Assembly (NCBI RefSeq): GCF_014270065.1
Contig: NZ_JACNME010000001.1
Location: forward strand, 558,001-622,000
Reading direction: 5' to 3'
DNA from: Quadrisphaera sp. RL12-1S
Lineage (GTDB): Bacteria > Actinomycetota > Actinomycetes > Actinomycetales > Quadrisphaeraceae
DNA: 64,000 nt
Shown here in pieces: positions 3,892 to 36,735 of this stretch; positions within the stretch are counted from its first letter, which is position 1; every line of letters starts with the position of its first letter. A model generated the notes under the pieces. That model ran no database searches. It had not been told where the DNA came from and saw nothing but the letters and a program-made list of their open reading frames with translations. The translations under genes were made by a program, and so were the position numbers.

Positions 3892-4707
3892 TCAGTGCTC
3901 TCCCCGGTGCAGGACGCGCTCCGTGGTGCGCCCGTCGGCCAGCGTGGTGCGGACCGTCAGGGAGCTCGTCGGCCACGACGGCCACCAGGCCGTGAACCAG
4001 CCGTCGCCCAGGGTCGCCGCGACGCGGCGGCCGTCGGCGTCGGTGAGGACGACGCTCGTGACGTCAGCCCCCGCGCGGCCGAACGCCTGGGTGTAGGAGC
4101 CCTCAGCGGTCCGCAGCCCACCACCCCACACCACGGTGGTGCCGTCGCGGCGCGGCTCGGGGACGCTGTCTGCCGGTGCCCAGGCGCCCATCCCCGTCTC
4201 CTCGCCGAGGACGGGGTCGTGGAGCGACGGGTCGGCGGACAGGCAGGTGGCCACGCCTTCCTCCGTCACAGCGAGCGCCGAGAGGTAGCCGCCCCTGAGG
4301 TCCGCCAGCCCTGCCGTCCGAGGCCCTCCGAGGGGCTTCCCGTCCGGGTCGGTCATCAGGGCGAGGCAGTCGGCCTCGGCCGTGGCGGCCTGCTCCGCCG
4401 TCAGCGGTGTGGGCTCCGCGGTCCACGTGGCGAAGGCCTGCGGGGTGCCCTCGTCTGAGGCGACCTGCGCGGCGACGAGGCCAGCGGCCGTCACCGCCGC
4501 CGCGGCGCCCACGAGCACCCACCGGCGGCGCAGCCGGACCGAGCGCTGGCCGCTCGTCGTCGTCCTGCTCTCGGGGTCTGCGGGGGTGCGCGGGGTGGCG
4601 AGGACCCGCGCCAGCAGCGCCTCGGCGGCCGGGGAGGTGGGGTCGGGGGTGCGCCCCAGGGTGGGGTCGAGGCGGGTCAGGTCCAGCTCGGTCAGCGGGG
4701 CGTTCAT
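3892..4707 (-). CDS. Membrane-anchored protein, probable ECF sigma partner
   Basis: A 271-residue protein. It has an N-terminal cytosolic part of about 55 residues, a basic RLRRRW stop-transfer edge, a single membrane helix (about residues 60-80, VLVGAAAAVTAAGLVAAQV) and an extracytoplasmic domain of about 190 residues containing two cysteines (in EADCLAL and VATCLSA). The ATG overlaps the stop of the sigma factor by 4 bp, the normal arrangement for a sigma factor and its membrane regulator. No HxxxCxxC zinc anti-sigma motif is visible, so it is not a classical ZAS protein. Its role as sigma regulator is inferred from order and topology. Confidence 0.7.
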   Translation of the reverse strand: MNAPLTELDLTRLDPTLGRTPDPTSPAAEALLARVLATPRTPADPESRTTTSGQRSVRLRRRWVLVGAAAAVTAAGLVAAQVASDEGTPQAFATWTAEPTPLTAEQAATAEADCLALMTDPDGKPLGGPRTAGLADLRGGYLSALAVTEEGVATCLSADPSLHDPVLGEETGMGAWAPADSVPEPRRDGTTVVWGGGLRTAEGSYTQAFGRAGADVTSVVLTDADGRRVAATLGDGWFTAWWPSWPTSSLTVRTTLADGRTTERVLHRGEH

Positions 4708-5324
4708 CGGGGGCCTCCGTCGGCGGGAGCGGTCTTCGGGGTGGCGGGGTGGTCGAGGTGCACGCGCAGCCGGCGGCGGGCGCGGACCAGGCGCAGGCTC
4801 AGCGCGGTGCGGCTGATGCCGAGCACCTGCGCGGCCTCGACGGTGCTCAGCCCGTCGAGGGCGGTGAGGGTGAGCGCCTCCTGGTCGGACGGGCTGAGCA
4901 GGCACCAGGCGCGGGCCAGGTCCACCTGGGAGACCACGCGGTCGCTGCCGTCGGGGACGACGTCGGCGGGCAGCGCCGTGCCGACGCGCACGGCGAGGGC
5001 CTGGCGGCGCGCGTCGCCGCGGCGGGCGTTGAGCATGGTCCGCTGGGCCACGCCGAACAGCCACGCGCGGGCCCTGCCGTGGTCGGCCGGGACCTCCTCC
5101 AGGCGGCGCCACGCGACCACGAACACCTCCGCGACGACGTCCTCGGCGGCCAGCGGGTGCAGGCGCCGCTCGACGAACCTGACGAGGTCGGCGTAGGTCG
5201 CGCGGAACAGGGCCTGGTACCGGTCCTCGTCGGGCACCGGGCCTCCTGGCGGTGGGGGTGGTGGAGCCGCGGCGGGGGCGGTGGTCAGCGGGGTGCTCAC
5301 ACCCCCTACGTGTCCGGCGCACAC
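4704..5324 (-). CDS. ECF-family RNA polymerase sigma factor
   Basis: A sigma factor of about 200 residues with region 2 (FRATYADLVRFVERRL to VVAEVFVVAWRRLEEV) and region 4 (LLSPSDQEALTLTALDGLS followed by an EAAQVLGISRTALSLRL helix-turn-helix). Region 3 is absent, as expected for the ECF group. It would bind core RNA polymerase and direct it to a small regulon. Two GTG starts are possible, 5324 and 5300; the first residues are variable and proline-rich so the start is uncertain. It is the first gene of a two-gene operon with the membrane partner at 4707. Confidence 0.85.
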   Translation of the reverse strand: MCAGHVGGVSTPLTTAPAAAPPPPPPGGPVPDEDRYQALFRATYADLVRFVERRLHPLAAEDVVAEVFVVAWRRLEEVPADHGRARAWLFGVAQRTMLNARRGDARRQALAVRVGTALPADVVPDGSDRVVSQVDLARAWCLLSPSDQEALTLTALDGLSTVEAAQVLGISRTALSLRLVRARRRLRVHLDHPATPKTAPADGGPR

Positions 5325-25748: not shown

Positions 25749-25821
25749 GGGCCTCTAGCTCAACTGGCAGAGCAGCGGACTTTTAATCCGCGGGTTGTGG
25801 GTTCGAGCCCCACGGGGCCCA
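25749..25821 (+). tRNA. tRNA-Lys(UUU)
   Basis: A 73-base cloverleaf. The acceptor stem GGGCCTC pairs with GGGGCCC (one G-U), the D stem is GCTC/GAGC, the anticodon stem GCGGA/TCCGC encloses loop CTTTTAA giving anticodon UUU, and the T arm is GTGGG-TTCGAGC-CCCAC. The CCA end is not fully encoded. It is the attachment site of the mobile element: bases from the anticodon loop onward (25780-25821) are duplicated at 36692. The antisense strand of this gene encodes the integrase C-terminus. Confidence 0.97.
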
Positions 25822-26953
25822 CCGACGTTTCCGCAGGTAGGGGCAGTTCCAGTACCTCGGCCGAGGTCTCCTCGGCGGCCGGAGTACACCCAAAGTCCAC
25901 ACTTCTCGTGACCATCAACGCGTCCATGCGCTGCGAGACCGAGTCGTCGTCGTCCTCGAACAGGCCCGCGTACACGTCCAGGGTCATCGCCGCCGAGGCG
26001 TGCCCGAGCATGTTCTGGACCTTCTTGACGTCCGCGCCAGCGGCCACCGCGAGGCTGGCCGCCGTCGAGCGCAGGTCGTGAGGAGTGACGTCGGCCAGCC
26101 CGGCCCGGCGCACCGCGGCGTCGAACCGGACTCGGAAGGCGCGCAGGCGCAGCGGGCCGCCCTCGGGCGCGGTGAGTGCGAGGTCGTCGGGCGCCTTGCC
26201 CTTGAGACGCTTGGACAGCGGCTCCACGAGGGAGGCCGAGAAGCGCACCGTCCGCTCCCGATGCGTCTTGGTGTCGCCGTACACGAGCCTGCCCCCGACC
26301 TCGGCAACGGCCTCACGCACGACCATCCGGCGGCGCACGAGATCGACGCTGCCCACGCGCAGCGCCGCCGCCTCACCGAACCGCAGTCCCGTCATCGCCA
26401 GCAGTCGGATGACGTCGCCCTCCGCTCCCATCGCCAGCGCCAGGCGCCCCACCTCGGCGGGGGTGAGGTAGCGGGCAGGCTTGCGGGTGCGCCGGGGGAT
26501 CGGCACGCCACGCGCCACGTTCTGCGTGAGCCGCCCGTCCTTGACCGCGTAGCCCAGGATCAAGCTGAGCACTCGGTGCGCCTGAGCCACGGTGCTCGGC
26601 GCGAGCCCCTTGGCCGTCAGCTCCTGCACCCACGAGGCGACCTCGGAGTGCATCACGCGGTCCAGCGGCACCTTGTCCCAGCGTGGGAGGACGTGGGTGC
26701 GCCGCAGCGTCTCGTAGCGCGTCCGGCTGCTGATCTTGAGGTGGCCCTGCGCGTCGATCCAGGTCTGCGACCAGGCCCCGACCGTCACGCGGCTGCGCTT
26801 GGGATCACGCCAGGTGCCACCGTCGATGGCCACGCGCTGCGCCGCCAACCACGACTCGGCCTCGCGCTTGCTCGGGAAGTGCTTGCTATGGGCGCGGTGG
26901 TCCGGTCCTCGGTAGCGAGCCGTGAACCCGCCGCGTCTGCGCTCGATGCTCAC
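25760..26953 (-). CDS. int: Tyrosine recombinase/integrase
   Basis: A 397-residue phage-type integrase. The N-terminal arm-binding domain occupies about residues 1-55 and a SAM-like core-binding domain about 60-145. The catalytic residues are Arg191 (TGLRFGEAA), Lys229, His292 and Arg295 (HDLRS), His318 (GHAS) and Tyr328 (LDVYAG). The 3' end runs antisense through tRNA-Lys, and the last residues GLKVRCSAS come from the tRNA region. The stop lies 20 bp outside the element core, so the C-terminus depends on integration state. It overlaps the repressor gene by 4 bp. Confidence 0.93.
   Translation of the reverse strand: MSIERRRGGFTARYRGPDHRAHSKHFPSKREAESWLAAQRVAIDGGTWRDPKRSRVTVGAWSQTWIDAQGHLKISSRTRYETLRRTHVLPRWDKVPLDRVMHSEVASWVQELTAKGLAPSTVAQAHRVLSLILGYAVKDGRLTQNVARGVPIPRRTRKPARYLTPAEVGRLALAMGAEGDVIRLLAMTGLRFGEAAALRVGSVDLVRRRMVVREAVAEVGGRLVYGDTKTHRERTVRFSASLVEPLSKRLKGKAPDDLALTAPEGGPLRLRAFRVRFDAAVRRAGLADVTPHDLRSTAASLAVAAGADVKKVQNMLGHASAAMTLDVYAGLFEDDDDSVSQRMDALMVTRSVDFGCTPAAEETSAEVLELPLPAETSVGPVGLEPTTRGLKVRCSAS
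25780..25823 (+). repeat. attL core (44-bp direct repeat)
   Basis: Identical over 44 bp to 36692-36735, starting at the anticodon loop of tRNA-Lys (CTTTTAATCC) and ending two bases past the tRNA. The flanking bases differ (A versus T before, G versus A after). The full tRNA is on this side. Confidence 0.95.
25824..25838 (+). repeat. Candidate integrase arm site (P' arm)
   Basis: GACGTTTCCGCAGGT immediately follows the attL core and recurs exactly at 36656-36670, 21 bp before the attR core. Direct 15-bp repeats flanking the core in the excised circle fit arm-type integrase or Xis sites. Confidence 0.55.
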
Positions 26954-27336
26954 TCCCCGCCCGCCTCCCTGGCCAGCGCACGCTCTCTCTCGGCCTTCAG
27001 TAGGTCATCCAGCACCCGCATGGCCTCTGTCTGTGCGACTGGCTCGCCGGGGTCGGTAGCCGACCCCTCGCCAGCGATCCAGCGCAGCGGGACGTCGAGT
27101 ACTCGGGCCAGCGCCACAGCTTCGCGGAACTTGAGCGCCCGCGTACCTCGCTCGACGTGGCCGATCGCCGTGTGGTGGAGCTGTAGCCCATAACTGCCGA
27201 GGCGTCGCGCGACGTCATCCTGCGAGAGGTCCCGCACTCGCCGCGCCATCCGGACGCGTCGACCCACTGCGCCGTCATCGGGCAGCGGCAATAGGTCGGC
27301 AACCGTCGGCATGTCGCAGATCATACGCGCGCTCAT
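26950..27336 (-). CDS. Xre-family repressor of the element
   Basis: A 128-residue protein with a lambda-repressor-like HTH at about residues 25-85 (RRVRMARRVRDLSQDDVARRL then HHTAIGHVERGTRALKF). The C-terminal tail is helical and charged. It overlaps int by 4 bp, and both are transcribed away from the early genes, as in phage and PICI master repressors. The first ATG (27336) lies in a 12-bp inverted repeat, with internal ATGs at 27324 and 27312 as options. It probably represses both its own and the xis-side promoter until a helper phage signal relieves it. Confidence 0.85.
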   Translation of the reverse strand: MSARMICDMPTVADLLPLPDDGAVGRRVRMARRVRDLSQDDVARRLGSYGLQLHHTAIGHVERGTRALKFREAVALARVLDVPLRWIAGEGSATDPGEPVAQTEAMRVLDDLLKAERERALAREAGGE

Positions 27337-27376
27337 CGCTCAAAACCTATGTACAGTGCTCATCAGCGATGAGCGC
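27329..27376. promoter_or_regulatory. Divergent switch region with repressor operators
   Basis: Perfect 12-bp arms GCGCTCATCGCT (27329-27340) and AGCGATGAGCGC (27365-27376) flank 24 bp, and a second nested dyad GCTCATC-AGC-GATGAGC covers 27358-27374. So three GCTCATC-type half-sites lie between the divergent xre and xis genes. TAATTT (27378-27383) is a likely -10 toward xis. This is the expected layout of a lysogeny operator. Confidence 0.72.
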
Positions 27377-27399
27377 TAATTTCGAGCTAGGAGCGAGCG

Positions 27400-27621
27400 A
27401 TGGAGTCGGTGACGAGGTGGGCGACGGAGTGGGCGGACATCAACGAGGCGTCCGCGATCACGGGAGTGCCGGTCGCAACGCTGAGGTCGTGGCGGTGGCG
27501 ACGCCTCGGCGAGGGGCCCGAGAGCTTCACCGTGGGTCGACGCATCCGCTACAGGCGCGACGCCATCGAGGCGTGGATGCGCCAGCAGGAAGCTGCGGGC
27601 ACCTCGGCCGGTGCAGCGTGA
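27400..27621 (+). CDS. AlpA/Xis-like MerR-type DNA-binding protein
   Basis: A 73-residue winged HTH_17 protein: DINEASAITGVPVATLRSWRWRRLGEGPESFTVGRRIRYRRDAIEAW in parts shows the helix-turn-helix and the wing. Such proteins act as excisionases or transcription activators in phages and satellites. The ATG follows AGGAGCGAGCG. As the first gene of the rightward operon and next to the operator region, an excision/activation role is likely. The next gene overlaps it by 4 bp. Confidence 0.83.
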   Translation: MESVTRWATEWADINEASAITGVPVATLRSWRWRRLGEGPESFTVGRRIRYRRDAIEAWMRQQEAAGTSAGAA

Positions 27622-27962
27622 GCGTCGACGAGCTGCCTGCTGAGCTGCGCGGCATCGCGCGCCGCACGGGCGAGCTGCTGGCCGATGGCGGGCACGTCGC
27701 TGATGGCGACGAGGTGCGCGCGGCGGTCCTGCACATCGACGCCGAGGTGCTCCGTCGCCTGCGCGAGGGAGCACGCGGCATCGACGCCGCCGTGGGCGTC
27801 GTCGGCCAGGTCGTCTGCGACCGCCTCGCCACCCGGCTGCTCCAGGGCCGCGAGGTGGGCGAGGCGCTCTACGACGTCGCCGTGCTGCACGCCGCGCTGG
27901 AGCTGGGCTACCCCGCGAGCTGGTTCGCGGTTTCCTGCCTGGACGACCTGGTAGCGCGGTGA
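27618..27962 (+). CDS. Hypothetical protein of the element's early operon
   Basis: A 114-residue mostly helical, acidic protein. Nothing recognisable beyond alternating Arg/Glu-rich helices; one pair of cysteines is present but not in a CxxC motif. The GTG overlaps the xis-like stop (GTGA) and its own stop overlaps the next gene in the same way, which supports it being real. Its position between xis and the replication gene suggests an element-regulatory role. Confidence 0.72.
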   Translation: MSVDELPAELRGIARRTGELLADGGHVADGDEVRAAVLHIDAEVLRRLREGARGIDAAVGVVGQVVCDRLATRLLQGREVGEALYDVAVLHAALELGYPASWFAVSCLDDLVAR

Positions 27963-28213
27963 GCGAGCCGACCGCTGAGGCCGACGTGGTGGCGCAGACC
28001 GTCGCCCTCGCCGTCGAGCGTCTCCAGGCCTGCAAGTCCGCCTATGCCCGCCAGACGCTGACGCGCTGGTGGATCAGGCGCCACGAGCAGACCGCGCGCT
28101 TCCCCGGCTCCCGCCAGCACGCGGTGGCCGAGGGCGTCCTGGCCACCGTCAGCCCCGGCGCCCTGAAGGCCTACCGCCGAGCCGCTGCGCTGCGTCGCGA
28201 CGACGCGGCCTGA
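27959..28213 (+). CDS. Small basic hypothetical protein
   Basis: An 84-residue, Arg-rich helical protein (RQTLTRWWIRRHEQTARF, LKAYRRAAALRRDDAA). It overlaps the preceding gene by 4 bp. The basic character would suit nucleic-acid contact but there is no defined domain. It is part of the coupled early operon. Confidence 0.68.
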   Translation: MSEPTAEADVVAQTVALAVERLQACKSAYARQTLTRWWIRRHEQTARFPGSRQHAVAEGVLATVSPGALKAYRRAAALRRDDAA

Positions 28214-28241
28214 TCCCCCACCCCTAGACAGGAGCACGACC

Positions 28242-28526
28242 GTGATCGCTTGCTACACCGTGAAGGCACTCGGCGAGGCGCTGGACACCGAGGTGACCAC
28301 CCTGCCCGACGGCAGCGAGGCCCTGGCCTGGACCGCCGACGGCGCCGAGGTGACCGTCACCCAGCACGGGCCCGAGGAGGCCTGGCTGGTCAGCGTCGCG
28401 TCCGTCGGTGAGGACGAGCCGCCCTACCGCGAGGTCGTGCGCTTCTCCCGAGGTGCCCACCAGGTCACCGAGACCGTCGCCCACGGGCTGACGGCGCTGC
28501 GCGAGGCAGGCCGCCTCGCCGGGTAG
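28242..28526 (+). CDS. Small acidic hypothetical protein
   Basis: A 94-residue acidic protein, mainly predicted beta strands (ALAWTADGAEVTVTQHGPEEAWLVSVASV). GTG start with CAGGAGCACGACC upstream. No domain is recognised. Small acidic proteins in satellites can be DNA mimics or helper-interference factors, but nothing here proves that. Confidence 0.7.
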   Translation: MIACYTVKALGEALDTEVTTLPDGSEALAWTADGAEVTVTQHGPEEAWLVSVASVGEDEPPYREVVRFSRGAHQVTETVAHGLTALREAGRLAG

Positions 28527-28558
28527 CCGAGCCCCGCTCCCGACTCCAGACGTAGATC

Positions 28559-28592
28559 GCCCCTGGCAGCCGTTGGTAGCAGCTCCAGGGGC
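28559..28592. other. Stem-loop before the replication gene
   Basis: GCCCCTGG (28559-28566) and CCAGGGGC (28585-28592) form an 8-bp stem with an 18-base loop, ending 28 bp before the replication protein start. It could be a weak terminator or an mRNA leader structure. Confidence 0.35.
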
Positions 28593-28619
28593 ACGACCCG
28601 AGTGGTGGGTAAGAACACG

Positions 28620-30947
28620 ATGACAGTTTTTGAACCCGACATCAAGCATGACGACGCGCCCGACGCAGTGATCACCGCGAAGGTGCTGCCCTTCCCCCGT
28701 CAGCAGACCTCCGGGCTGAGCGTCCCTGTCATCGAGGCCGACGACGACGCGATGACCGCCGCACTGAAGTACGCCGCTGCGAACTGGAGAGTTATCCCGG
28801 TGCGCCGAAGCACCAAACACCCCGGCTCGGTCCTGGGTGAGGGCTGGCAGTACCAGTCCAGCTCCGACCCCGCCGTCATCGCGGCCTGGTTCGCCGGGTG
28901 CGACTACGGGGTGGGTCTGCACGCGGGTGCCAGCGGCGCCGTCATCTTCGACATCGACAAGCCCGAGCTGCTGCCGGAACCGCTGCGCCAGGCGGCCGAG
29001 GAGTACGCCCCGCCGTTCCAGTCCACGCGACCCGGCCAGCCCGGACGCGGGCACCTGATCTTCGCCCTGCGCCCCGGACAGGCGCTCGGCAACTCGCGTG
29101 GCAGGCTCTACGACGCCGGGACCGAGCTGACCACCAAGTCCCACGCCTGGGGCGAGGTGCGCGGGCTCAACGGCTTCATCGTGGCTGAGCCCAGCGTCCA
29201 CGCCGACGCCGACGGCGCCTACGACTGGCAGGGCATCGGTGCCGTGCCCTACGTCCCGGACTACGTCAGCGAGCTACTCCCGCTCGGCCGGGACCGCGAC
29301 GCCCCCGTCACTGAGGCCGCCGTCGAGGCCTTCCTGGCCGAGCACTCTGGCGGGACGCACGCGCACCTCATGGCCGCACCGCTGGAGCGCTTCACGCGCG
29401 AGGTGGCCGACGGCGGCTCGCGTCACGAGGCGCTCGTGGCCACGGCGTGCTGGATCGCCCGTGACGTCCGCGCGGGCCTGTACGACGCACCGACCGCGTT
29501 CTCCACGCTGGAGTCCCTGTTCCTGGACGCCATGGCCGCCATGCCCACCCCCGGCCGCCATCCGGCCAACGAGTTCCAGGGGGTGCTGGCCTGGGCCGTG
29601 GCGCAGGTGGCCGCACCCGGTGAACCCACGCCAGCCCAGCACCGCGAGGCCGTGCTGACGCGCCTGTACGGCCCCGCTCCCGAGCCACCGACCGACCCCG
29701 AGCCCCCACCTCCGCGCGAGCCACCTGAGCCCACCCCGAACACCCCGGCGCCCGCCACCGCCGACGACCCCGAGCAGGAGCACGACGTGGTGGAGTCCGA
29801 GTCCAGCCCAGGCGTCATCGAGCGCGCCTACGACGCCATGGTCCGCGAGGAGGTCCGGCGCCAGTCGGCCCGCGAGGACGCGGCTCGCATCCTCGCCGAG
29901 CGCCAGGACGGCACCGAGGGCCGCAAGCACCTGCGTGAGCGAGCGCTGAGCATCGCTGGCCTGCGCTCCCTGCCGCCGACGACACCGCTGATCGATGGGC
30001 TGCTGGCGCGCGACACCCTGGCCCAGCTCAGCGGCCCACCCGGCTCGTACAAGTCGTTCGTGGCCCTGGCCATGGCGCTGAGCGTGGCCACCGGGCGCCG
30101 GTTCGAGGAGCACGACGTCCCAGCAGCCGGGCCCGTCGTCTACGTGGCCGCCGAGGGCAGCAGCGGCATGCTCGCCAGGGCGCTGGCCTGGTGCCACCTC
30201 AACGGGGTCGACCCCGACGCCCTGGACGGCCAGTTCTACGTCGTGCCCGAGCCGGTGCAGCTCAACGGCGCCGTGGACGTCACCGAGGCCGTGGAGTTCG
30301 CCGCCGAGATCGGGGCCGCCCTGGTCGTCCTGGACACCCGCCACCGCTGCACCCTCGGGCTGGAGGAGAACAGCTCCAGCGAACAGGGACGGGCCATCCA
30401 CTCCGCTGAGCGCATCCAGCGCGCCAGCGGTGCCACGGTGCTGGTGATCCACCACTCGGGGCGCACCGGCGAGCACGGACGCGGCTCCAACGCCTGGGAT
30501 GGCGCCGTGTGGTCTGAGCTGCGGCTCACCGGCGCTGACCTGCGGGTGAAGATCACCTGCGAGAAGCACAAGGACTGGCCCGACGCCTGCCAGCACACGT
30601 TCGCCATGCAACCCACCGTGGTGCCTGCCGAACTGATGCCGGGAGCGAGCGAGCAGCAGCGCTCCACCCTCGTAACCGTCCAGGGAACGCTCTGGACGGC
30701 ACCTCGCGCGGAGACCAAGAACGCGCGCATCGTCCAGAAGATCGTTTGGACGATGGCGACTCCCGCTGGGCTCGCGCCCGGTGTCATCCGGGACCTGGCC
30801 ATGGAGCAGGGCGGCAGCCGCTCCGGTGCCTACGAGGCACTGAACTCGCTGGTCACGAGCGGTTTCCTCCGCAACGTGGGAACCGACAAGGCGCCGCGGT
30901 ACGTCACCGACCGACCGGCTCCCAGCGACCTCGCGGACTGGTCATGA
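28620..30947 (+). CDS. Bifunctional primase-polymerase / RepA-like AAA helicase
   Basis: A 775-residue replication protein. The N-terminal about 220 residues resemble the prim-pol domain (WRVIPVR, VGLHAGASGAVIFDID, GRGHLIF), with acidic metal ligands in FDID. A Pro-rich linker (about 370-400) leads to a RecA-like ATPase: Walker A GPPGSYKS near 472 and Walker B ALVVLDT near 567, as in RepA/AAA_25 helicases. A C-terminal winged domain (GVIRDLAMEQGGSRSGAYEAL) may bind origin DNA. ATG 28620 is used; GTG 28602 is an alternative. It would allow helper-independent replication after excision. Confidence 0.87.
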   Translation: MTVFEPDIKHDDAPDAVITAKVLPFPRQQTSGLSVPVIEADDDAMTAALKYAAANWRVIPVRRSTKHPGSVLGEGWQYQSSSDPAVIAAWFAGCDYGVGLHAGASGAVIFDIDKPELLPEPLRQAAEEYAPPFQSTRPGQPGRGHLIFALRPGQALGNSRGRLYDAGTELTTKSHAWGEVRGLNGFIVAEPSVHADADGAYDWQGIGAVPYVPDYVSELLPLGRDRDAPVTEAAVEAFLAEHSGGTHAHLMAAPLERFTREVADGGSRHEALVATACWIARDVRAGLYDAPTAFSTLESLFLDAMAAMPTPGRHPANEFQGVLAWAVAQVAAPGEPTPAQHREAVLTRLYGPAPEPPTDPEPPPPREPPEPTPNTPAPATADDPEQEHDVVESESSPGVIERAYDAMVREEVRRQSAREDAARILAERQDGTEGRKHLRERALSIAGLRSLPPTTPLIDGLLARDTLAQLSGPPGSYKSFVALAMALSVATGRRFEEHDVPAAGPVVYVAAEGSSGMLARALAWCHLNGVDPDALDGQFYVVPEPVQLNGAVDVTEAVEFAAEIGAALVVLDTRHRCTLGLEENSSSEQGRAIHSAERIQRASGATVLVIHHSGRTGEHGRGSNAWDGAVWSELRLTGADLRVKITCEKHKDWPDACQHTFAMQPTVVPAELMPGASEQQRSTLVTVQGTLWTAPRAETKNARIVQKIVWTMATPAGLAPGVIRDLAMEQGGSRSGAYEALNSLVTSGFLRNVGTDKAPRYVTDRPAPSDLADWS

Positions 30948-31038
30948 CCTAGCCGTCCAGGCGCGTCCAGCGTCGTCCAGGCCTCTCGCCAGACGTCCAG
31001 TCCAGCCCCCCACCCCTAGGGGGCTGGACGTCTGGACG
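30676..31038. repeat. CGTCCAG iteron array, candidate replication origin
   Basis: CGTCCAG occurs exactly at 30677, 30731, 30954, 30964, 30974 and 30994, and its complement CTGGACG at 30692, 31024 and 31032, with a near copy at 30746. Three copies are spaced exactly 10 bp and the fourth 20 bp later. Pairs also form dyads (30676-30699, 30729-30754). The last copies are in a stem: 30989-31010 with 31019-31035. The array begins in the end of the replication gene and fills the gap after it, as iteron origins do. Confidence 0.68.
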
Positions 31039-31114
31039 GACGAGACGAGACATCGACTACCAGCCCCCACCACAGGCGCTCCCAATGAAGATCAACTATC
31101 TCGAGGAGTTCGCC

Positions 31115-31612
31115 ATGTCCCGCTTCACCTACGTCCTGCCCCTCGCCGCAGCCCTCGCCCTGGCTGGCTGCGGCACCACCCCGGCCACCGAGGCACCGCC
31201 CGAGCTGGCCTCAGCGCCCAGCGAGCCCGCTACCCGTGGCGGGGAGCCCATCGAGGAGCCGACTGCCACCCCCGCGTCGCCCTACCCGGCCGTGACGATC
31301 CAGCCCGGCTCGCTGGCCGCCAAGGGCGCCTCCCTGGGCCTGGACCTCGACTGGAGCGCCTACGTGGCTCCGGCGGGCGGCTGGGAGCCCGGTGAGGCCG
31401 CCTGGCAGTGCGAGTGGTCACTGGCCAACGCTCCCGCCGAGGGCGTCCAGCGCGGCGACGCTGCCCGCTACGTCATCTTCCTGGCCACCTCTCGCGCAGG
31501 GATGCACCAGGAGTCCTGGGAGGCCTCCCAGGACGCGGTGGCCGACAACACCCGGGCCTGCCTGGCCTTCCTTCAGGCGCAGGTCGACCTCGCCGCTGCC
31601 CAGCAGTCCTGA
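31115..31612 (+). CDS. Predicted lipoprotein carried by the element
   Basis: A 165-residue secreted lipoprotein. The signal sequence MSRFTYVLPLAAALALAGC ends in a lipobox (LAGC, Cys19). A Pro/Thr/Glu-rich linker follows to about residue 60, then a globular part with two Cys. ATG 31115 has GAGGAG upstream; an in-frame ATG at 31085 is less likely since it would put charged residues before the signal. It would be anchored outside the membrane. In temperate phages such lipoproteins often block superinfection; this role here is inferred. Confidence 0.82.
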   Translation: MSRFTYVLPLAAALALAGCGTTPATEAPPELASAPSEPATRGGEPIEEPTATPASPYPAVTIQPGSLAAKGASLGLDLDWSAYVAPAGGWEPGEAAWQCEWSLANAPAEGVQRGDAARYVIFLATSRAGMHQESWEASQDAVADNTRACLAFLQAQVDLAAAQQS

Positions 31613-31636
31613 ACACCCAACCCGAGAGGACACGCC

Positions 31637-32152
31637 ATGACCCGCAAGCCCAACCCCCTGCGCACCAGGACCGTCTCCCGTGAGGCCGGCGCAGCGCTGG
31701 CCGCCCTGGACGGCGCCACGATCACCGAGCTGGTCCACGAGGAGGTCACCGACCCGCTGTTCCCTGAGGCGCCCGCCGTGGTCAACGACGACGAGGTGAC
31801 CGCCAGCGTCATGATCCCTCGGCGCTACCTGAAGGCCGAGTGCCCCGACTGCGGCGGCCCGCGCAGCGAGCACGGCATCGACGCGCTGGTCTTCGACCAT
31901 GACGAGCGCTGCGAGGTCGGGGCGGCCCTGGACGCTCAGCTCCGCCGGGACGCTGGCGTCATCGCCCGCAAGGTCGGACGGGGTGAGCCGCCCCAGCGCA
32001 GCCGGACCTCGACCCGCGAGGAGCTGTGGTGCCTGGCTGACCGGGGACTGACCCCGCCGACGCGCTGCACCACCGTGCGCCTGAACGCGCAGGGCCAGCC
32101 GGTGCGCTCCTGGCGCTGGCTGGACCACGAGCCGGACCTGGCTGCGAGCTGA
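31637..32152 (+). CDS. Hypothetical protein with a CxxC motif
   Basis: A 171-residue protein of unknown function. A CPDCGGPRSEHG motif near residue 69 with a later Cys (DERCEVG) suggests a small zinc-binding site. ATG preceded by GAGAGGACACGCC. It follows the lipoprotein by 24 bp and is closed by a strong hairpin, so the two are probably one transcription unit. Confidence 0.75.
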   Translation: MTRKPNPLRTRTVSREAGAALAALDGATITELVHEEVTDPLFPEAPAVVNDDEVTASVMIPRRYLKAECPDCGGPRSEHGIDALVFDHDERCEVGAALDAQLRRDAGVIARKVGRGEPPQRSRTSTREELWCLADRGLTPPTRCTTVRLNAQGQPVRSWRWLDHEPDLAAS

Positions 32153-32159
32153 CCACCGG

Positions 32160-32195
32160 TGGCGCCCCGGTTCTCCTGCGAGAACCGGGGCGCCA
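32160..32195. terminator. 16-bp perfect hairpin terminator
   Basis: The arms 32160-32175 and 32180-32195 are perfect 16-bp complements with a 4-base CTGC loop, starting 8 bp after the preceding stop. There is no T-run, common in high-GC actinobacteria. It separates the replication/lipoprotein part from the packaging part of the element. Confidence 0.75.
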
Positions 32196-32284
32196 TGGTG
32201 CCCCTACGGCGCCTCCTCGACGACCACCCTTGATCGAGAGCGAGCCGGAGGGACGACTCCGGCGCAGGCCGACGAGGAGCACCC

Positions 32285-32719
32285 GTGAGCACCACCGACG
32301 ACACCCAGACCCCGCCGGACGACCAGACCCCCGACCCGGCCGACCACGCCGAGGAGACCCCCTCCGGCAAGCGTGCTCAGCGTGAGCGGGCCCAGGCAGC
32401 CGAGACCCGTGCCGAGCAGGCAGAGACGCGGGTGGCCGCCCTCCAGCGCCGCGAGGTCGCCCGCCTGGCCTCGGCCCACCTGGCCGACGGGGCCGACCTC
32501 CTGGAGCCCGCTCTGGGTGGTGCTGAGTTGCAGGCCCTGCTGGGCGAGGACGGTCTGCCGGATGCCGAGCTGATCGAGGCCGCAGCCGCAGCCATGCTCG
32601 GCAAGCGCCCCTACCTGGGCGCCACCCGCCGCCGCGCCAGCGGCAGCCCCGACGGTGGCGCTCGTGAGCCCGTGTCCCGTGCGCGTGGCTGGGGCGAAGT
32701 CCTGCGAGCCCAGCGATGA
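32285..32719 (+). CDS. Scaffold-like coiled-coil protein
   Basis: A 144-residue protein. Acidic, Asp/Thr/Pro-rich N-terminus (about 1-28), a heptad-like coiled coil (about 29-62, KRAQRERAQAAETRAEQAET then RVAALQRREV) and a basic C-terminal end (RRRASGSP, VLRAQR). The shape, small size and place upstream of the terminase/capsid genes are typical of phage scaffolding proteins, which line the procapsid. No sequence signature proves it, so this is an inference. GTG start preceded by GACGAGGAGC. The next gene overlaps by 4 bp. Confidence 0.72.
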   Translation: MSTTDDTQTPPDDQTPDPADHAEETPSGKRAQRERAQAAETRAEQAETRVAALQRREVARLASAHLADGADLLEPALGGAELQALLGEDGLPDAELIEAAAAAMLGKRPYLGATRRRASGSPDGGAREPVSRARGWGEVLRAQR

Positions 32720-33105
32720 ACGCGCCCCGCTGCCCGGAGTGCAGCGCCCCGCTGTGGGTTGACCCCAGGCTCGGGCTGCTGTGCGCGCACGAGGTCTCGT
32801 GTGAGCTGGGCAAGGCTGAGGATCAGCAGGCGCATGACGATCGCTCAGCGTGTGGCTGGCGTACGACGCACTCACCTGAGTACACGCGTGATGATCCGCG
32901 TCAGTACGGCGCGATGTTCGTGCGCGAGGCGACTGCGGCTGAACGCACGCTCGCGCTCGCATGCGGTGCTGATGCTGCTGCTGTTGCGCGCACTCAGGTC
33001 GCGCTGCACTTCCTCGCTGGCGGGATCAGGCGACGTGTCTTCACGAGCGTGCGACTGACGGGGCTGCCCGGCCTGCCGACCACCGACCCCCGCCTGGTCC
33101 GGTGA
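32716..33105 (+). CDS. Zinc-ribbon-like hypothetical protein
   Basis: A 129-residue protein. CPECSAPL near residue 5 and LLCAHEVSCELG near 20, with another Cys (SACGW), outline a possible zinc ribbon. The C-terminal half is helical. It overlaps both neighbours by 4 bp. Function unknown; small zinc proteins near terminase genes may be endonuclease remnants, but no HNH motif is present. Confidence 0.72.
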   Translation: MNAPRCPECSAPLWVDPRLGLLCAHEVSCELGKAEDQQAHDDRSACGWRTTHSPEYTRDDPRQYGAMFVREATAAERTLALACGADAAAVARTQVALHFLAGGIRRRVFTSVRLTGLPGLPTTDPRLVR

Positions 33106-33251
33106 GCACCCCGGCCGCCCCTCCCCTGGGGGAGGCACCCCCGGACGATCTTGCTGCGGTGACCCCTGGAGAGGTCTGCCGACCAAGGCAACCCCTGAGT
33201 CGTATGCGACACAGCCTGAACGCCCCGTACAGCCCCTGGAGGACGCCGTGA
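33102..33251 (+). CDS. 49-residue mini-gene between zinc-ribbon and terS
   Basis: GTG at 33102 overlaps the preceding TGA, and the frame runs 49 codons to a TGA at 33249-33251 that itself overlaps the GTG of the terminase gene (GTGA on both sides). The product begins VSTPAAPPLGEAPPDDL and is basic toward the end. No domain. The precise double overlap in an otherwise coupled operon is the main evidence that it is translated. Confidence 0.5.
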   Translation: MSTPAAPPLGEAPPDDLAAVTPGEVCRPRQPLSRMRHSLNAPYSPWRTP

Positions 33252-33661
33252 GCAGCACTGAGGCCTACCGCGAGCCCGAGCCCGCACCGGCAGGCCTGGG
33301 CCCGCGTGGGACCGCTCTGTGGGCCAAGGTCGTCGGCCCCTGCACCCTGGACCCGCACGAGCAGGAGATGTTGGAGCACGGCTGCCGCCTGGCCGACCGC
33401 CTCGACGCCCTCGATGCAGCGGTGGCGGCCGACGGCGTCATGGTCGACGGCGCCCGAGGCTCCAAGCGCCTGCACCCCGCCATCGCTGAACACCGCCAGG
33501 CCACCCTCGCGCTGGCCCGCGTCATGGTGGCCCTGCGCTTGCCCGCCGGGTACGCCGACAGCGGCGCCAGCTCCACCGGGAGCACGCCCACCGGCATCGT
33601 GCGCCAGGCCCAGCGCCGGGTCGGCATCCGTGGGTTCCAGTCGATGCCTCGGGGCGCGTGA
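33248..33661 (+). CDS. terS: Phage terminase small subunit (P27-like)
   Basis: A 137-residue protein with the actinophage small-terminase layout: LGPRGTALWAKVVGP near residue 17, then DPHEQEMLEHGCRLADRLDALDAA, and HPAIAEHRQATLALARVMVALRLP near 77-100. Small terminases recognise the pac/cos site and hand DNA to the large terminase. No large terminase is encoded here, so it would recruit that of a helper phage. This is the classic way satellites redirect packaging to their own DNA. GTG start, overlapping the preceding mini-gene. Confidence 0.82.
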   Translation: MSSTEAYREPEPAPAGLGPRGTALWAKVVGPCTLDPHEQEMLEHGCRLADRLDALDAAVAADGVMVDGARGSKRLHPAIAEHRQATLALARVMVALRLPAGYADSGASSTGSTPTGIVRQAQRRVGIRGFQSMPRGA

Positions 33662-34071
33662 TGGCTGGTCTGCGACCGCCTCGCCCGGCCAAGCCCGGCT
33701 CGGTGGGGGCTCCACCTCGCTGTCTGCGCCTGCGCGGCGTCAGCGACGTCTGGGGCGATGACCTCGGTGACCCGCTGGCACCGCACCGTTGGCGGGCCGC
33801 CGCCGAGCGTTGGCGAGCTGCTGCCCGAGCCAGCGGGATGCGCGAGACCGATGTCTGGTCGGCTCTGCCGGGCGGGCCCTACAGGTTCGACGCGGACTAC
33901 TACGTCGAGGACACGCTGCGCCACTACGGCTACACGCTCGATGACCTGCCCGTCATGGCCGCCGAGGCCCGCCAGCACTACCCGGAGCTGTTCGACCCGG
34001 GCTGGATTCCGCAGGTGGAGCGCTCCGGCTGGGAAGCTGCTGCGGCGAGCCTGGCCAACCGCACCCCGTAG
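33658..34071 (+). CDS. Hypothetical protein downstream of terS
   Basis: A 137-residue protein, or 136 from the ATG at 33661. Basic N-terminus (about 1-30) and helical, Trp/Tyr-rich rest (HRWRAAAERWRAAAR, YYVEDTLRHYGYTLDDL). It overlaps terS by 4 bp. No domain is recognised. Given its place it may take part in head assembly or packaging. Confidence 0.7.
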   Translation: MMAGLRPPRPAKPGSVGAPPRCLRLRGVSDVWGDDLGDPLAPHRWRAAAERWRAAARASGMRETDVWSALPGGPYRFDADYYVEDTLRHYGYTLDDLPVMAAEARQHYPELFDPGWIPQVERSGWEAAAASLANRTP

Positions 34072-34204
34072 TTGCCCCACGGCGTCGTCGATGACGCCGA
34101 TGATCGACCTCAGTACCTCCGCCGTTCGTGGCCGTCACGGAGCGCGGGCAGCGGGTGGTGCAGTCCTGGCCCGGCTGAGGGCCCCTGCGTGGCCGTGAGG
34201 GAGC

Positions 34205-34228
34205 GCGCAGAGACACCCGTCTCTGCGC
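34205..34228. other. 10-bp perfect hairpin before the capsid gene
   Basis: GCGCAGAGAC (34205-34214) and GTCTCTGCGC (34219-34228) form a perfect stem with an ACCC loop, 18 bases before the capsid GTG and directly before its CCAGGAG ribosome site. It may be a terminator, a processing site or a 5' stabiliser of the capsid mRNA. Confidence 0.55.
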
Positions 34229-34246
34229 ACCTCCAGGAGCCCCATC

Positions 34247-35107
34247 GTGGCTACGACCGTCACCGCCTCCGGCCTGCTCAAGCCCGAGGACGTCAAGAAC
34301 CTGATCCTGCTGCCGCTCCAGACCGGCGGCAGCGTCGCGCTCAACCCCGCCGTCTCGACGCTGGTCACCACCGATGCCCAGGTCAGCCGCTTCCCCCGCG
34401 TCACGGCCGCCCCGATCGTCGGCTGGGTGGCCGAGGGCGCCCCGCTGAACCTCACGGACATCGCCGTCGACGAGGTCGAGGTCGTGCCGTCCAAGGTCGG
34501 CTCCATCGTGCCGATCACCTCCGAGCTGGAGGAGGACGCCGAGTACGACCCCCTCGCGCTGGTCGGCTCCCAGCTCGTCGACCAGGCGGGCCAGGCCCTG
34601 GATGACGCCTTCCTGGGCAACCTCGCCTCCCCGGCTCCCAAGGGACTGGCCGCGCTGGCTGCTGCCTCGGGCAGCGGCGTGCAGATCGCCTCGGCCGGTG
34701 GCGCCTGGTCCAACCTGGACGTCTTCAGCAAGGCCGCCTCGCTGATCGAGGGCATCGGCGGGCAGATGACCGCCGTGCTGGCCAACCCCGCCGACGTGCT
34801 GACGATCTCCACGCTGAAGGCGTCCACCGGCTCCAACGCCCCGCTGCTGGCCCCTGGCGGTGACCCGGCTCAGCCCAGCCGCCGTCAGGTCGAGGGCGTG
34901 CCGCTGCTGAGTCACCGCAGCGTCCCGGCAGGCACCGCGTGGGCCGTGGACCGCTCGCGCATCTTCACCGTCATCCGCCGCTCGGTGCGCGTGGAGCAGG
35001 ACCGCAGCGTCTACCGCTCCACTGACCGCACGGCCGTCGTGATGACGATGCGCGCCGGGTTCGGGTTCGTCGACGACCGCGCCGTCGTCAAGATCAGCAA
35101 GGCCTGA
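34247..35107 (+). CDS. HK97-fold phage major capsid protein
   Basis: A 286-residue capsid protein. The pattern of an N-terminal arm, then ALNPAVSTLVTTDAQVSRFPR, WVAEGAPLNLTDIAVDEVEVVPSKVGSIVPITSELEEDA in parts, and the C-terminal RSRIFTVIRRSVRVEQDRSVY is typical of actinophage HK97-like major capsid proteins. There is no long N-terminal delta domain, which fits use of a separate scaffold. It would assemble the head shell. Start GTG with CAGGAGCCCCATC upstream. A satellite-encoded capsid could form a small head around the 11-kb genome. Confidence 0.87.
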   Translation: MATTVTASGLLKPEDVKNLILLPLQTGGSVALNPAVSTLVTTDAQVSRFPRVTAAPIVGWVAEGAPLNLTDIAVDEVEVVPSKVGSIVPITSELEEDAEYDPLALVGSQLVDQAGQALDDAFLGNLASPAPKGLAALAAASGSGVQIASAGGAWSNLDVFSKAASLIEGIGGQMTAVLANPADVLTISTLKASTGSNAPLLAPGGDPAQPSRRQVEGVPLLSHRSVPAGTAWAVDRSRIFTVIRRSVRVEQDRSVYRSTDRTAVVMTMRAGFGFVDDRAVVKISKA

Positions 35108-35109
35108 TC

Positions 35110-35406
35110 GTGGCTCAGCAGACCGCTCCCGGTGACCAGCCCGTGGTCAGCGGGCGCACCGGGGATCGCTCGGACCGGGTGGTGTTCGCCGACCACGGCG
35201 CCAGCCACGTCACGGTGACCCGCACCAGCGGGGCCGCTGCGCTGTACGTCACCACCGACGGGAGCGCGCCGACGTCGAACGGGCCGTGGCGCTGGGTGCT
35301 GCGGGCCGACGACCCGGCACTGACCATCCCGGTGCCCCCGGCCGAGTCGGTCGTGGTGCGCCTGCACGCCAGCGAGCCCGTCGACTACGACGTGCAGGCC
35401 CTGTAG
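35110..35406 (+). CDS. Small beta-rich head-type protein
   Basis: A 98-residue, mostly beta-strand protein (SHVTVTRTSGAAALYVTTDG, SVVVRLHA). It starts 2 bp after the capsid stop and is therefore translationally coupled. The position right after the capsid gene and all-beta nature resemble capsid decoration or head-fibre proteins. No family match is certain. Confidence 0.72.
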   Translation: MAQQTAPGDQPVVSGRTGDRSDRVVFADHGASHVTVTRTSGAAALYVTTDGSAPTSNGPWRWVLRADDPALTIPVPPAESVVVRLHASEPVDYDVQAL

Positions 35407-35717
35407 CCAGCGGGGCGGCTGACTCGTCGGCAGCTCGCCCCGCCTCCGGTGGTTGCGGTTCGTCCCCGTGGCCACCACCAGCCCCGCCCCGGCCAGCACC
35501 GCCTCCCGCTGGTCGGGGCGGTGGCGTGTCGTCCCCACAGCCCTGCCCCTAGAGGCATGCTGGTGGTGTTCCTCTCGTTCGGGAACGGCGCAGCGGTGTC
35601 TCGCCCGCTCGCCAACCGCCTCGCCCTCGGTGCGCTGCCGTCGTACACAGCGCACCGGGGGCGGTGGCGCGCCAGGGCCCTCCGTGTTGTCGGTGGCTGC
35701 CTCTACCTTCACCGCCT
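35407..35717. other. 311-bp stretch without a convincing gene
   Basis: Between the small head-type gene and the accessory gene at 35718. Short open frames exist on both strands but have neither ribosome sites nor plausible composition. The first part is C-rich with scattered short inverted repeats (for example CCCCGCC/GGCGGTG-type). It may hold a terminator and a promoter for the following accessory gene; nothing is clear. Confidence 0.4.
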
Positions 35718-36140
35718 GTGAGCGAACCGTCACCGCTGCCCGGCAAGTGGATTCCCATGGCGTTCCTCCAGGGGGCCGATCTCGGGCTACCCCTGCGGGT
35801 GCCGGAGGACGCCTGGATACGCCTGATCCATCACGACGAGCGTGGCGCGCCCTACCTCATGTACGTCTTGTTCTGGATCACGCCAGGCCTGCTGCACCTT
35901 GCTCGCTGCGAGGGCTGGGTAGAAGACGACAGCGACCTGATTGACGACGTCGACGATCGCCGGGTACTGACACACGAGCGCATCAGCTTCGAGCGCATCG
36001 AGGAGTACAACCTGGACCTGGCCACCGGCCAGGGCTTCCTCAAGGTCACCGGCCAGCCGCGCCGAGAGGATCTGCCGATGATCCCCATCGTCAGCTACCT
36101 CAACGAGGGGCCCGGCGGCATGCAGATCACCAAGCACTGA
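35718..36140 (+). CDS. Accessory hypothetical protein near attR
   Basis: A 140-residue protein of unknown function, acidic overall, with one hydrophobic stretch (LMYVLFWITPGLLHLA near residue 55). The GTG at 35718 is chosen since upstream residues are low-complexity. Composition is less GC-biased than neighbours. Its place between the capsid genes and attR is where satellites and prophages often keep anti-phage or host-benefit cargo; that is inference only. Confidence 0.65.
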   Translation: MSEPSPLPGKWIPMAFLQGADLGLPLRVPEDAWIRLIHHDERGAPYLMYVLFWITPGLLHLARCEGWVEDDSDLIDDVDDRRVLTHERISFERIEEYNLDLATGQGFLKVTGQPRREDLPMIPIVSYLNEGPGGMQITKH

Positions 36141-36208
36141 GTCCGCACAAGCACATCGCCGCCCCGCGCGGAGGGCGGTGCCACGTCCGGGCCGGGGGCC
36201 GAACGACC

Positions 36209-36523
36209 CTACGGACGCTGTGCCTTGAGCACCTCACGGATGAAGATCGCCGCCACGGGCTCGAAGTCTGAGGAGTCCATGGCGTGCCTGGTCTGGATCA
36301 CGAGAGGGTCAAGGCCGTGCGCGGTCTGCTCGTGCAGCGACTCGCCCCCGACCGCGTAGGCCACCATCCCCGTCGTGGCCTGATGCCAGGGGAGGGGCTC
36401 GCTCGTCAGGGCCGCGCGCACAGCACCTGCGTCATCAGCGCTGAGGGCAGTGAAGGTTGACGACGTCAGCACCCGCTCACTGAACTCGGAGAGCAGGGCG
36501 TTCATCGTGTCGTCGTGGACCAT
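36209..36523 (-). CDS. Accessory hypothetical protein on the opposite strand
   Basis: A 104-residue protein (ATG 36523) convergent to the preceding gene. It is helical and has no recognised domain (MNALLSEFSERVLTSS, VIQTRHAMDSSDF). The opposite orientation and own upstream region (36524-36655) indicate independent expression in the integrated state, as for lysogenic-conversion genes. An upstream ATG at 36616 would add a hydrophobic segment but lacks support. Confidence 0.6.
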   Translation of the reverse strand: MVHDDTMNALLSEFSERVLTSSTFTALSADDAGAVRAALTSEPLPWHQATTGMVAYAVGGESLHEQTAHGLDPLVIQTRHAMDSSDFEPVAAIFIREVLKAQRP

Positions 36524-36655
36524 GGGGGCGAGCGTAGGTCGCCTGGTCTGGCGGCTCCCGCTGGCGTACACCAGAAGTACACAGACTCCCCAGTAACCGC
36601 CGTCAGTCCCCATCACTCGCCAGTAATCGAAGCGCTGGTCAGAGCAGTCATCACG

Positions 36656-36670
36656 GACGTTTCCGCAGGT
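36656..36670 (+). repeat. Candidate integrase arm site (P arm)
   Basis: GACGTTTCCGCAGGT, identical to 25824-25838. It ends 21 bp before the attR core. In the excised circle it would lie on the other side of the core from the copy at 25824. Confidence 0.55.
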
Positions 36671-36691
36671 CAGAGCGTCCCTTAGGACGAT

Positions 36692-36735
36692 CTTTTAATC
36701 CGCGGGTTGTGGGTTCGAGCCCCACGGGGCCCACC
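36692..36735 (+). repeat. attR core (44-bp direct repeat)
   Basis: Second copy of the 44-bp core. It holds only the 3' half of tRNA-Lys from the anticodon loop (the 5' half is absent), so it is not a functional tRNA. It marks the far end of the element. Confidence 0.95.

Follow-up and report, generated by a model that had tools for sequence, protein, structure and literature searches.

The question raised by this locus is how an integrated element that carries its own capsid gene, yet lacks genes for a portal, a large terminase subunit and a tail, could be packaged and passed on. The window, meaning the whole stretch of DNA that was analysed, is 64,000 nucleotides from Quadrisphaera sp. RL12-1S (contig NZ_JACNME010000001.1, positions 558,001 to 622,000), and the element inside it, here called the Quadrisphaera element, measures 10,912 bp from start to start of two perfect 44-bp repeats. 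By its sequence it is a unit bounded by attachment (att) repeats, with a replication module, its own scaffold, capsid and small terminase subunit (TerS), and no large terminase subunit (TerL), portal or tail. We regard it as probable that the Quadrisphaera element belongs to a kind of integrated phage satellite that recurs in actinobacteria. The parts of the element that matter for this reading, in window coordinates, are listed below.

25749..25823, plus strand: tRNA-Lys(TTT) gene, the integration target (ARAGORN; Rfam RF00005)
25780..25823: attL core, 44 bp, identical to attR (perfect repeat)
25824..25838: copy of a 15-bp putative arm-type repeat, GACGTTTCCGCAGGT (exact repeat)
25760..26953, minus strand: tyrosine integrase, whose 3' end enters the tRNA gene (phrog_1 6.3e-59, PF00589 4.1e-23)
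26950..27336, minus strand: Xre-type repressor, divergent from the other genes (HTH_3 2e-9)
27400..27621, plus strand: Xis/AlpA-like HTH_17 protein (phrog_66 7.3e-10, HTH_17 8.5e-11)
28602..30947, plus strand: Prim-Pol/AAA replication protein, start possibly at 28668 (Prim-Pol PF09250 2.9e-22, AAA_25 PF13481 8.9e-31, phrog_10729 8.7e-66)
30948..31084: iteron array with inverted repeats, candidate replication origin (CGTCCAG x6)
32285..32719, plus strand: capsid scaffold protein (profile built here 2e-29; alignment; phmmer to the scaffold of a presumed packaged satellite 7.4e-10)
33248..33661, plus strand: TerS (phrog_1496 2.3e-19; phmmer to the TerS of a presumed packaged satellite 1.3e-11)
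34247..35107, plus strand: HK97-type major capsid protein (PF05065 2.1e-21, phrog_10 1.2e-26; phmmer to the capsid of a presumed packaged satellite 1.4e-19)
36656..36670: second copy of the 15-bp repeat (exact repeat)
36692..36735: attR core, 44 bp (perfect repeat)

A preliminary description, made from the letters alone, had named the 44-bp att repeats at tRNA-Lys, the integrase, Xre and Xis module, the primase-polymerase/AAA protein, the iteron-like array, the scaffold-like gene, terS and the HK97-type capsid gene, and all of these were recovered here. The 44-bp repeat is the 3' end of the tRNA-Lys(TTT) gene, with its second copy at 36692-36735, and the exact 15-bp repeats immediately inside both element ends (25824 and 36656) are placed as arm-type integrase sites would be. 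Four other Quadrisphaera genomes share synteny with the left flank, and similarity ends at 25824 in three of them and at 25829 in the fourth, which is at, or just beyond, the 3' end of tRNA-Lys. Within two of the congeners (G010 and G011, loci L063 and L064) another integrase gene (PF00589) follows the same tRNA-Lys; the integration site is therefore common to more than one element. Behind the replication gene, CGTCCAG occurs six times (both strands) in 137 bp, while any 7-mer reached six copies in 0 of 1000 dinucleotide shuffles. The protein at 32285-32719 has no library match; its assignment as scaffold comes from a custom profile whose members lie upstream of the capsid gene in most related loci, and it aligns with the scaffold-position proteins of those loci.

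The absence of tail, lysis, portal and large terminase genes had also been claimed beforehand, and it was borne out by a scan of 17 open reading frames (ORFs) of the element against Pfam and PHROG, in which none matched portal, TerL, tail, protease or lysis families. Connector, tape-measure and HNH families were likewise unmatched among these ORFs, with small unassigned ORFs remaining. Custom TerL and portal profiles found nothing in the Quadrisphaera element, and the TerL profile was sensitive enough to find a distant prophage TerL at 4.8e-29. The preliminary description had looked to portal or large terminase genes linked to the element elsewhere as the finding that would speak against it; across the whole genome there were 0 matches to TerL models PF03354 and phrog_9 and 0 to portal models PF04860 and PF05133.

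Homologues of the capsid were then sought among the 13 genomes of the family and a sample of 394 genomes from the class; in the latter no more than six first-look candidates per genome were scored, and matches may have been missed. This left 35 capsid loci, the window among them: every distinct place that the profile search reached at E<=1e-15, and three further loci from the same genus. Each was read over approximately 20 kb (three over less, at contig ends) and scanned with custom profiles; gene calls are rough in the lower-GC loci. TerL and portal were unmatched in 22 of the 35. These comprise 17 loci with an intact capsid of the family (type A, including the window), three whose capsid ORF is longer and which gave no scaffold match (L028, L029 and L043), and two with a broken capsid (L032 and L049). 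Ten loci (type B: L033-L037, L040, L042, L044, L046 and L048) contain TerL, an SPP1-type portal, scaffold, capsid and connector. L027 and L038 also carry TerL and portal, and L017 portal pieces only. Over 28 genomes, library models phrog_9, PF03354 and PF05133 each matched the ten type-B loci without exception and had no match in the 22 loci without TerL and portal, and PF04860 matched other prophages only. A selection of 22 large proteins, drawn from all but one of the 16 other type-A loci, was compared with PHROGs. Neither TerL nor portal appeared among the matches listed (for L030, 25 of 40 families); two proteins were of tape-measure or endolysin type, and the others were replication proteins or had no assigned function.

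Of the 17 type-A loci, 15 have a scaffold match. Exact repeats spaced 8,700-10,912 bp apart flank ten of the 17, the window included. Called tRNAs overlap the repeat in eight of these ten: one each for Lys, Phe, Ala, Leu, Pro and Val, and two for Gly. Seven of the ten type-B loci are repeat-bounded as well, at 9,953-11,320 bp. Element ends were taken as repeats of at least 23 bp, a cut-off set after the repeat list had been viewed, and shorter repeats (L011, L030 and L045) were not counted. Thirteen of the 17 type-A loci belong to one family, f12. As L018 and L030 are related to Mycolicibacterium phages, this family is presumably Mycobacteriaceae.

Capsid trees separate the two types. The ten type-B capsids form one clade in all three trees (support 100/99, 100/100 and 100/100), and the window and its type-A relatives fall outside it each time, although L027-L029 switch sides between trees. 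In the first tree type A consists of a set of nine containing the window (91/92) and a set of eight (100/100), all eight from f12; the set of nine is not resolved in another of the three trees. With the custom profile, TerS was matched in seven of the nine loci of the window's set and in none of the other eight, possibly because the profile was seeded from L012. PHROG confirmed five of the seven (the window, L012, L015, L018 and L030), and gave no confirmation for L014 and L016, where the call comes from the custom profile alone.

Head genes have persisted while the modules around them were exchanged. The element in Quadrisphaera sp. INWT6 (L011) shares with the window the lipoprotein-like gene, the 31637 protein, the scaffold, the 32716 protein and the capsid (86% identical), whereas it has a serine recombinase (PF00239) in place of the tyrosine integrase, an unrelated replication gene, and a different iteron, GTGGACA x6, behind that gene (0 of 300 shuffles). 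Capsid reading frames are intact across capsids that are 86% and 46% identical. Such exchange is the opposite of random loss.

Searches with tblastn using type-A proteins led to 12 GenBank records named as Mycolicibacterium phage (OR387110-OR387121, 10,866-11,078 bp, among them Anya, JSForest1 and Alyssa1), which have M. aichiense as host and contain a homologous capsid. Three of the 12 were inspected, all with soil from Virginia as source. They carry TerS, a small gene, head-to-tail adaptor, stopper, serine integrase, small genes (one helix-turn-helix), a gene in the scaffold position, capsid and tape measure. Custom profiles found capsid, scaffold and TerS in all three, and TerL and portal were unmatched in all three even at E 0.1. 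Using phmmer, the window proteins matched capsid in 3/3 (best 1.4e-19), TerS in 3/3 (1.3e-11) and scaffold in 2/3 (7.4e-10); the best bit scores were 66.6, 40.8 and 35.3, against at most 0, 11.2 and 12.8 over 100 shuffles each. A tblastn search of phages with the window capsid had given nothing at 1e-5, and with E up to 10 the Mycolicibacterium records were neither among the matches listed (20 of 83) nor among the leading organism names. Given the phmmer match of 1.4e-19, the tblastn negative is a sensitivity limit and not an absence of phage relatives. Scans of viral contigs with four capsids (window, L015, L012 and L051) found no relatives.

Because the 12 records were deposited as phage genomes with a soil source, they presumably represent DNA from particles. 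Genomes of equal length have different starting positions, which makes the deposited ends unreliable; these are probably arbitrary cuts of circular assemblies. Judging from the three inspected, the 12 'phages' look like satellites. Herbertwm, a 51.5-kb phage of M. aichiense from Williamsburg, was compared over its first 30 kb with two relatives, L073 and L075. For L073 there were strong matches at 49% in the adaptor, 45% in the stopper and 62% over 349 residues at the N-terminus of the tape measure, while its capsid reached 23% over 109 residues (4e-4), its scaffold 0.012, and its TerS had no match. For L075 the values were 50% (adaptor), 41% (stopper) and 46% (tape measure), with the capsid at 0.002. 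Since the strong matches lie in the neck and tape-measure genes and there are hardly any in capsid and scaffold, the former look as if drawn from a helper-like lineage and the head genes look like the satellite's own. Tape-measure proteins act as rulers of tail length. The satellite tape measure has 651 residues versus 807, which would predict a shorter tail if it serves as a ruler. Nine window proteins were also compared with the adaptor, stopper and tape measure of L073 and L075, without matches.

Taken as a satellite, the Quadrisphaera element would have the following life cycle. A helper phage would relieve repression, and the element would excise and then replicate from the iteron array. 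Its scaffold and capsid proteins would assemble a head around the helper's portal, and this head is probably small, as the units measure 9-11 kb. The satellite TerS would bias the helper's TerL toward satellite DNA, after which the filled head would acquire the helper's neck and tail. In the Mycolicibacterium relatives a short tape measure would also come from the satellite, along with adaptor and stopper. The Quadrisphaera element lacks all three and would depend on the helper for them too. We give about even chances to a broader proposal, that there is an unnamed family of 'head-and-TerS' satellites with chimeric virions, in which satellite shell, scaffold and packaging specificity are joined to the portal and motor of an unrelated helper, and in which the helper-lineage neck and shortened tape measure of some members fit, and shorten, the helper's tail.

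The best-surviving alternative, which we nevertheless consider unlikely, is interference, in which capsid and scaffold would poison helper head assembly and satellite DNA would ride in helper capsids by means of the satellite TerS. This would account for the missing portal and the lack of a protease match, it has a parallel in P4 and SaPI (Staphylococcus aureus pathogenicity island) satellites, which reshape helper heads rather than build them according to passages of PMC10690885, and the custom profile found no TerS in the clade of eight type-A capsids. However, a full capsid with its own scaffold, kept in 15 of the 17 type-A loci, exceeds what poisoning needs, and all ten bounded units fall within 8.7-10.9 kb.

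Decay is somewhat less probable still. The element could be the remains of a prophage, or of a capsid-forming phage-inducible chromosomal island (cf-PICI), from which portal, large terminase and tail were lost; type-B elements of similar size with TerL, portal, scaffold and capsid do occur in the same class, and some loci are visibly broken (L049, L032 and L017). Yet the type-B capsids are a separate clade, the frames of the divergent capsids noted above are intact, and relatives of approximately 11 kb were deposited as phage genomes. The preliminary description had also allowed that homologous loci might turn out to be random remnants of full prophages. Instead, ten elements that are bounded by repeats and fall in a single size class (8.7-10.9 kb) have the same set of head genes, and random prophage decay was rejected on that account. 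Finally, a domesticated, immobile island whose capsid serves the host in gene transfer or as a nanocompartment would suit a genome with no helper-type TerL or portal by four models, but it is very improbable for an element with perfect att repeats, arm-type repeats, intact integrase, Xre and Xis genes and an iteron array, whose relatives use different tRNAs and whose own tRNA-Lys is followed by other integrases in two congeners.

Several observations do weigh against the Quadrisphaera element being such a satellite. The host genome, with no TerL or portal of the searched families, has no visible resident helper. A clean empty attB was not found in the congeners compared, as the right-flank gene is located elsewhere, and is not syntenic, in other Quadrisphaera genomes. 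L011, the closest relative, and L013 gave no TerS match with the custom profile. The TerS of L074 is about 37-41% similar to that of full mycobacteriophages and so is not specific to satellites. The 12 phage records name no helper, and no paper on them was found in the open-access literature. The L073 tape measure has matches at 1e-20 in 770 phage records, so that Herbertwm is no unique match and models a type of helper rather than being an established one. The ratio of nonsynonymous to synonymous substitution rates in the capsid is 0.35 against L011 and 0.93 against L012; being distorted by very high GC, it is weak evidence and was not relied on. Predicted structures of the capsid and the 33658-34071 protein had very low confidence (predicted local distance difference test scores of 27 and 45).

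Phage-inducible chromosomal islands (PICIs) of the SaPI type are bounded by att sites and carry an integrase, a divergent repressor, Xis and a replication gene with iterons, and SaPIs use the capsid protein of their helper. The Quadrisphaera element resembles them in its att boundaries, integrase, divergent repressor, Xis, replication protein with iterons and a TerS gene with a predicted redirecting role, and differs in encoding a full capsid and scaffold. In SaPI-type PICIs, TerS redirects packaging (PMC10690885). According to the same source, the gene set of cf-PICIs includes a portal, protease, connectors, HNH and both terminase subunits. The Quadrisphaera element is like them in having its own capsid and, presumably, a borrowed tail, but it is without portal and TerL, and the type-B loci fit the cf-PICI description better than it does. 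As portal and TerL were searched for and are absent, we rejected its classification as a cf-PICI proper. The Streptomyces satellites MulchRoom and MiniFlayer are likewise actinobacterial and have their own capsid genes; unlike the Quadrisphaera element they are described as having both terminase subunits, a portal and terminal repeats, with no obvious replicases (PMC10690885).

A close published parallel lies in Mycobacterium, where candidate PICIs including phiRv1 and phiRv2 have an integrase and a major capsid protein with tRNA targets, and some have a helicase, terminase or scaffold (PMC10654092, mSystems 2023). That paper defines candidates by integrase and capsid in one phage-like region, a combination that the Quadrisphaera element carries in a host genus other than Mycobacterium, and its authors leave induction and transduction of the candidates still to be determined. 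The word 'portal' is absent from its main text, and passages of it do not distinguish elements with TerL and portal from those without. The M. aichiense phages of approximately 11 kb share homologous capsid, scaffold and TerS, an integrase, their size, and the lack of TerL and portal in the three inspected; they differ in their serine integrase, adaptor, stopper and short tape measure, and are labelled phages, not satellites. Passages of a 2024 review of satellite families (PMC11389934) describe no satellite with capsid and TerS but without TerL and portal, nor do the titles and abstract openings listed by searches of an open-access library.

The preliminary description had proposed a satellite that makes its own head and borrows the rest, and had called this division of labour unusual. 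The first part is supported as regards gene content: the unit is att-bounded and satellite-like, has its own head genes (capsid and scaffold) and TerS, and lacks genes for portal, TerL and tail. The word 'unusual' was too strong: the split recurs in the class, capsid-bearing Mycobacterium candidates are in print (PMC10654092), and relatives of approximately 11 kb have been deposited as phages. The capsid-bearing kind of satellite is thus already known, and the split of capsid and TerS from TerL and portal would be a variant of it that is not rare. If the satellite reading is true, head formation and packaging specificity would be separable from portal, motor and tail across two unrelated genomes, a split unseen in the satellites compared (P4, SaPI, cf-PICI and Mulch/Flayer, as described in passages of PMC10690885). 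The ease with which capsids can exchange portals and motors would become apparent, with a portal at work in a procapsid made of a shell protein that has almost no sequence in common with the portal's own shell. The mycobacterial capsid-bearing candidate islands would likewise gain a life cycle that can be tested, as relatives sharing these head genes have apparently already been isolated on a soil mycobacterium.

The remaining ORFs of the Quadrisphaera element are as follows.

27618-27962, 27959-28213 and 28242-28526, plus strand: three small ORFs with no assigned function (ORF calls)
31085..31612, plus strand: lipoprotein-like accessory gene (70% identity to the INWT6 element copy)
31637..32152, plus strand: conserved protein without assigned function (homologues in L011 and L012)
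32716..33105, plus strand: conserved Cys-containing protein, no assigned function (homologues in L011 and L012)
33658..34071, plus strand: conserved protein overlapping terS (beside terS in L012 too)
35110-35406 (plus), 35757-36140 (plus) and 36209-36523 (minus): three small ORFs with no assigned function (ORF calls)

A homologue of the 27959-28213 protein is present in the INWT6 element, and homologues of the three ORFs at 35110-36523 were found in none of the 34 other capsid loci. The 33658-34071 protein (in L012) and the 32716-33105 protein (in L012 and L011) accompany terS or scaffold in Quadrisphaera elements, which makes them candidates for helper-manipulating factors.

Tape-measure-like genes lie beside the capsid gene in two other type-A loci. 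L030:7502-9460 matches phrog_305 at 1.1e-202, and L051:6378-9311 matches phrog_971 (endolysin) at 3.2e-42 and phrog_10780 (tape measure) at 2.7e-24. Satellites with a tape-measure-like protein of their own (L030, L051 and the three M. aichiense relatives) may set their own tail length. At L043 (G105:C5), one of the three loci whose capsid ORF is longer, a tape measure of 1,153 residues is encoded near the capsid gene, and TerL and portal are absent from that genome by four models. In the type-B locus L035, an upstream gene (4437-4865) resembled an HNH endonuclease by eye; Pfam gave no match and the assignment is not claimed.

One of the congeners with another integrase at tRNA-Lys (G010) contains a prophage-like region of approximately 18 kb (L066, G010:C116, about 33-51 kb) with TerL and portal, at about 50% GC in a Quadrisphaera genome above 70% GC. 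No link could be demonstrated between this low-GC prophage and that genome's own element. In L027 (6472-14014, read with L069, G209:C28), a segment of approximately 5.6 kb with a serine recombinase (PF00239), scaffold and capsid splits the large-terminase gene of a tailed prophage; a further capsid was not found in the part of the prophage that was read. The N-terminal part (L027:13046-14014) corresponds to positions 5-244 of phrog_19179 and the C-terminal part (L027:6475-7383) to positions 241-342. A satellite inserted into the packaging-motor gene of a phage would, if true, be remarkable.

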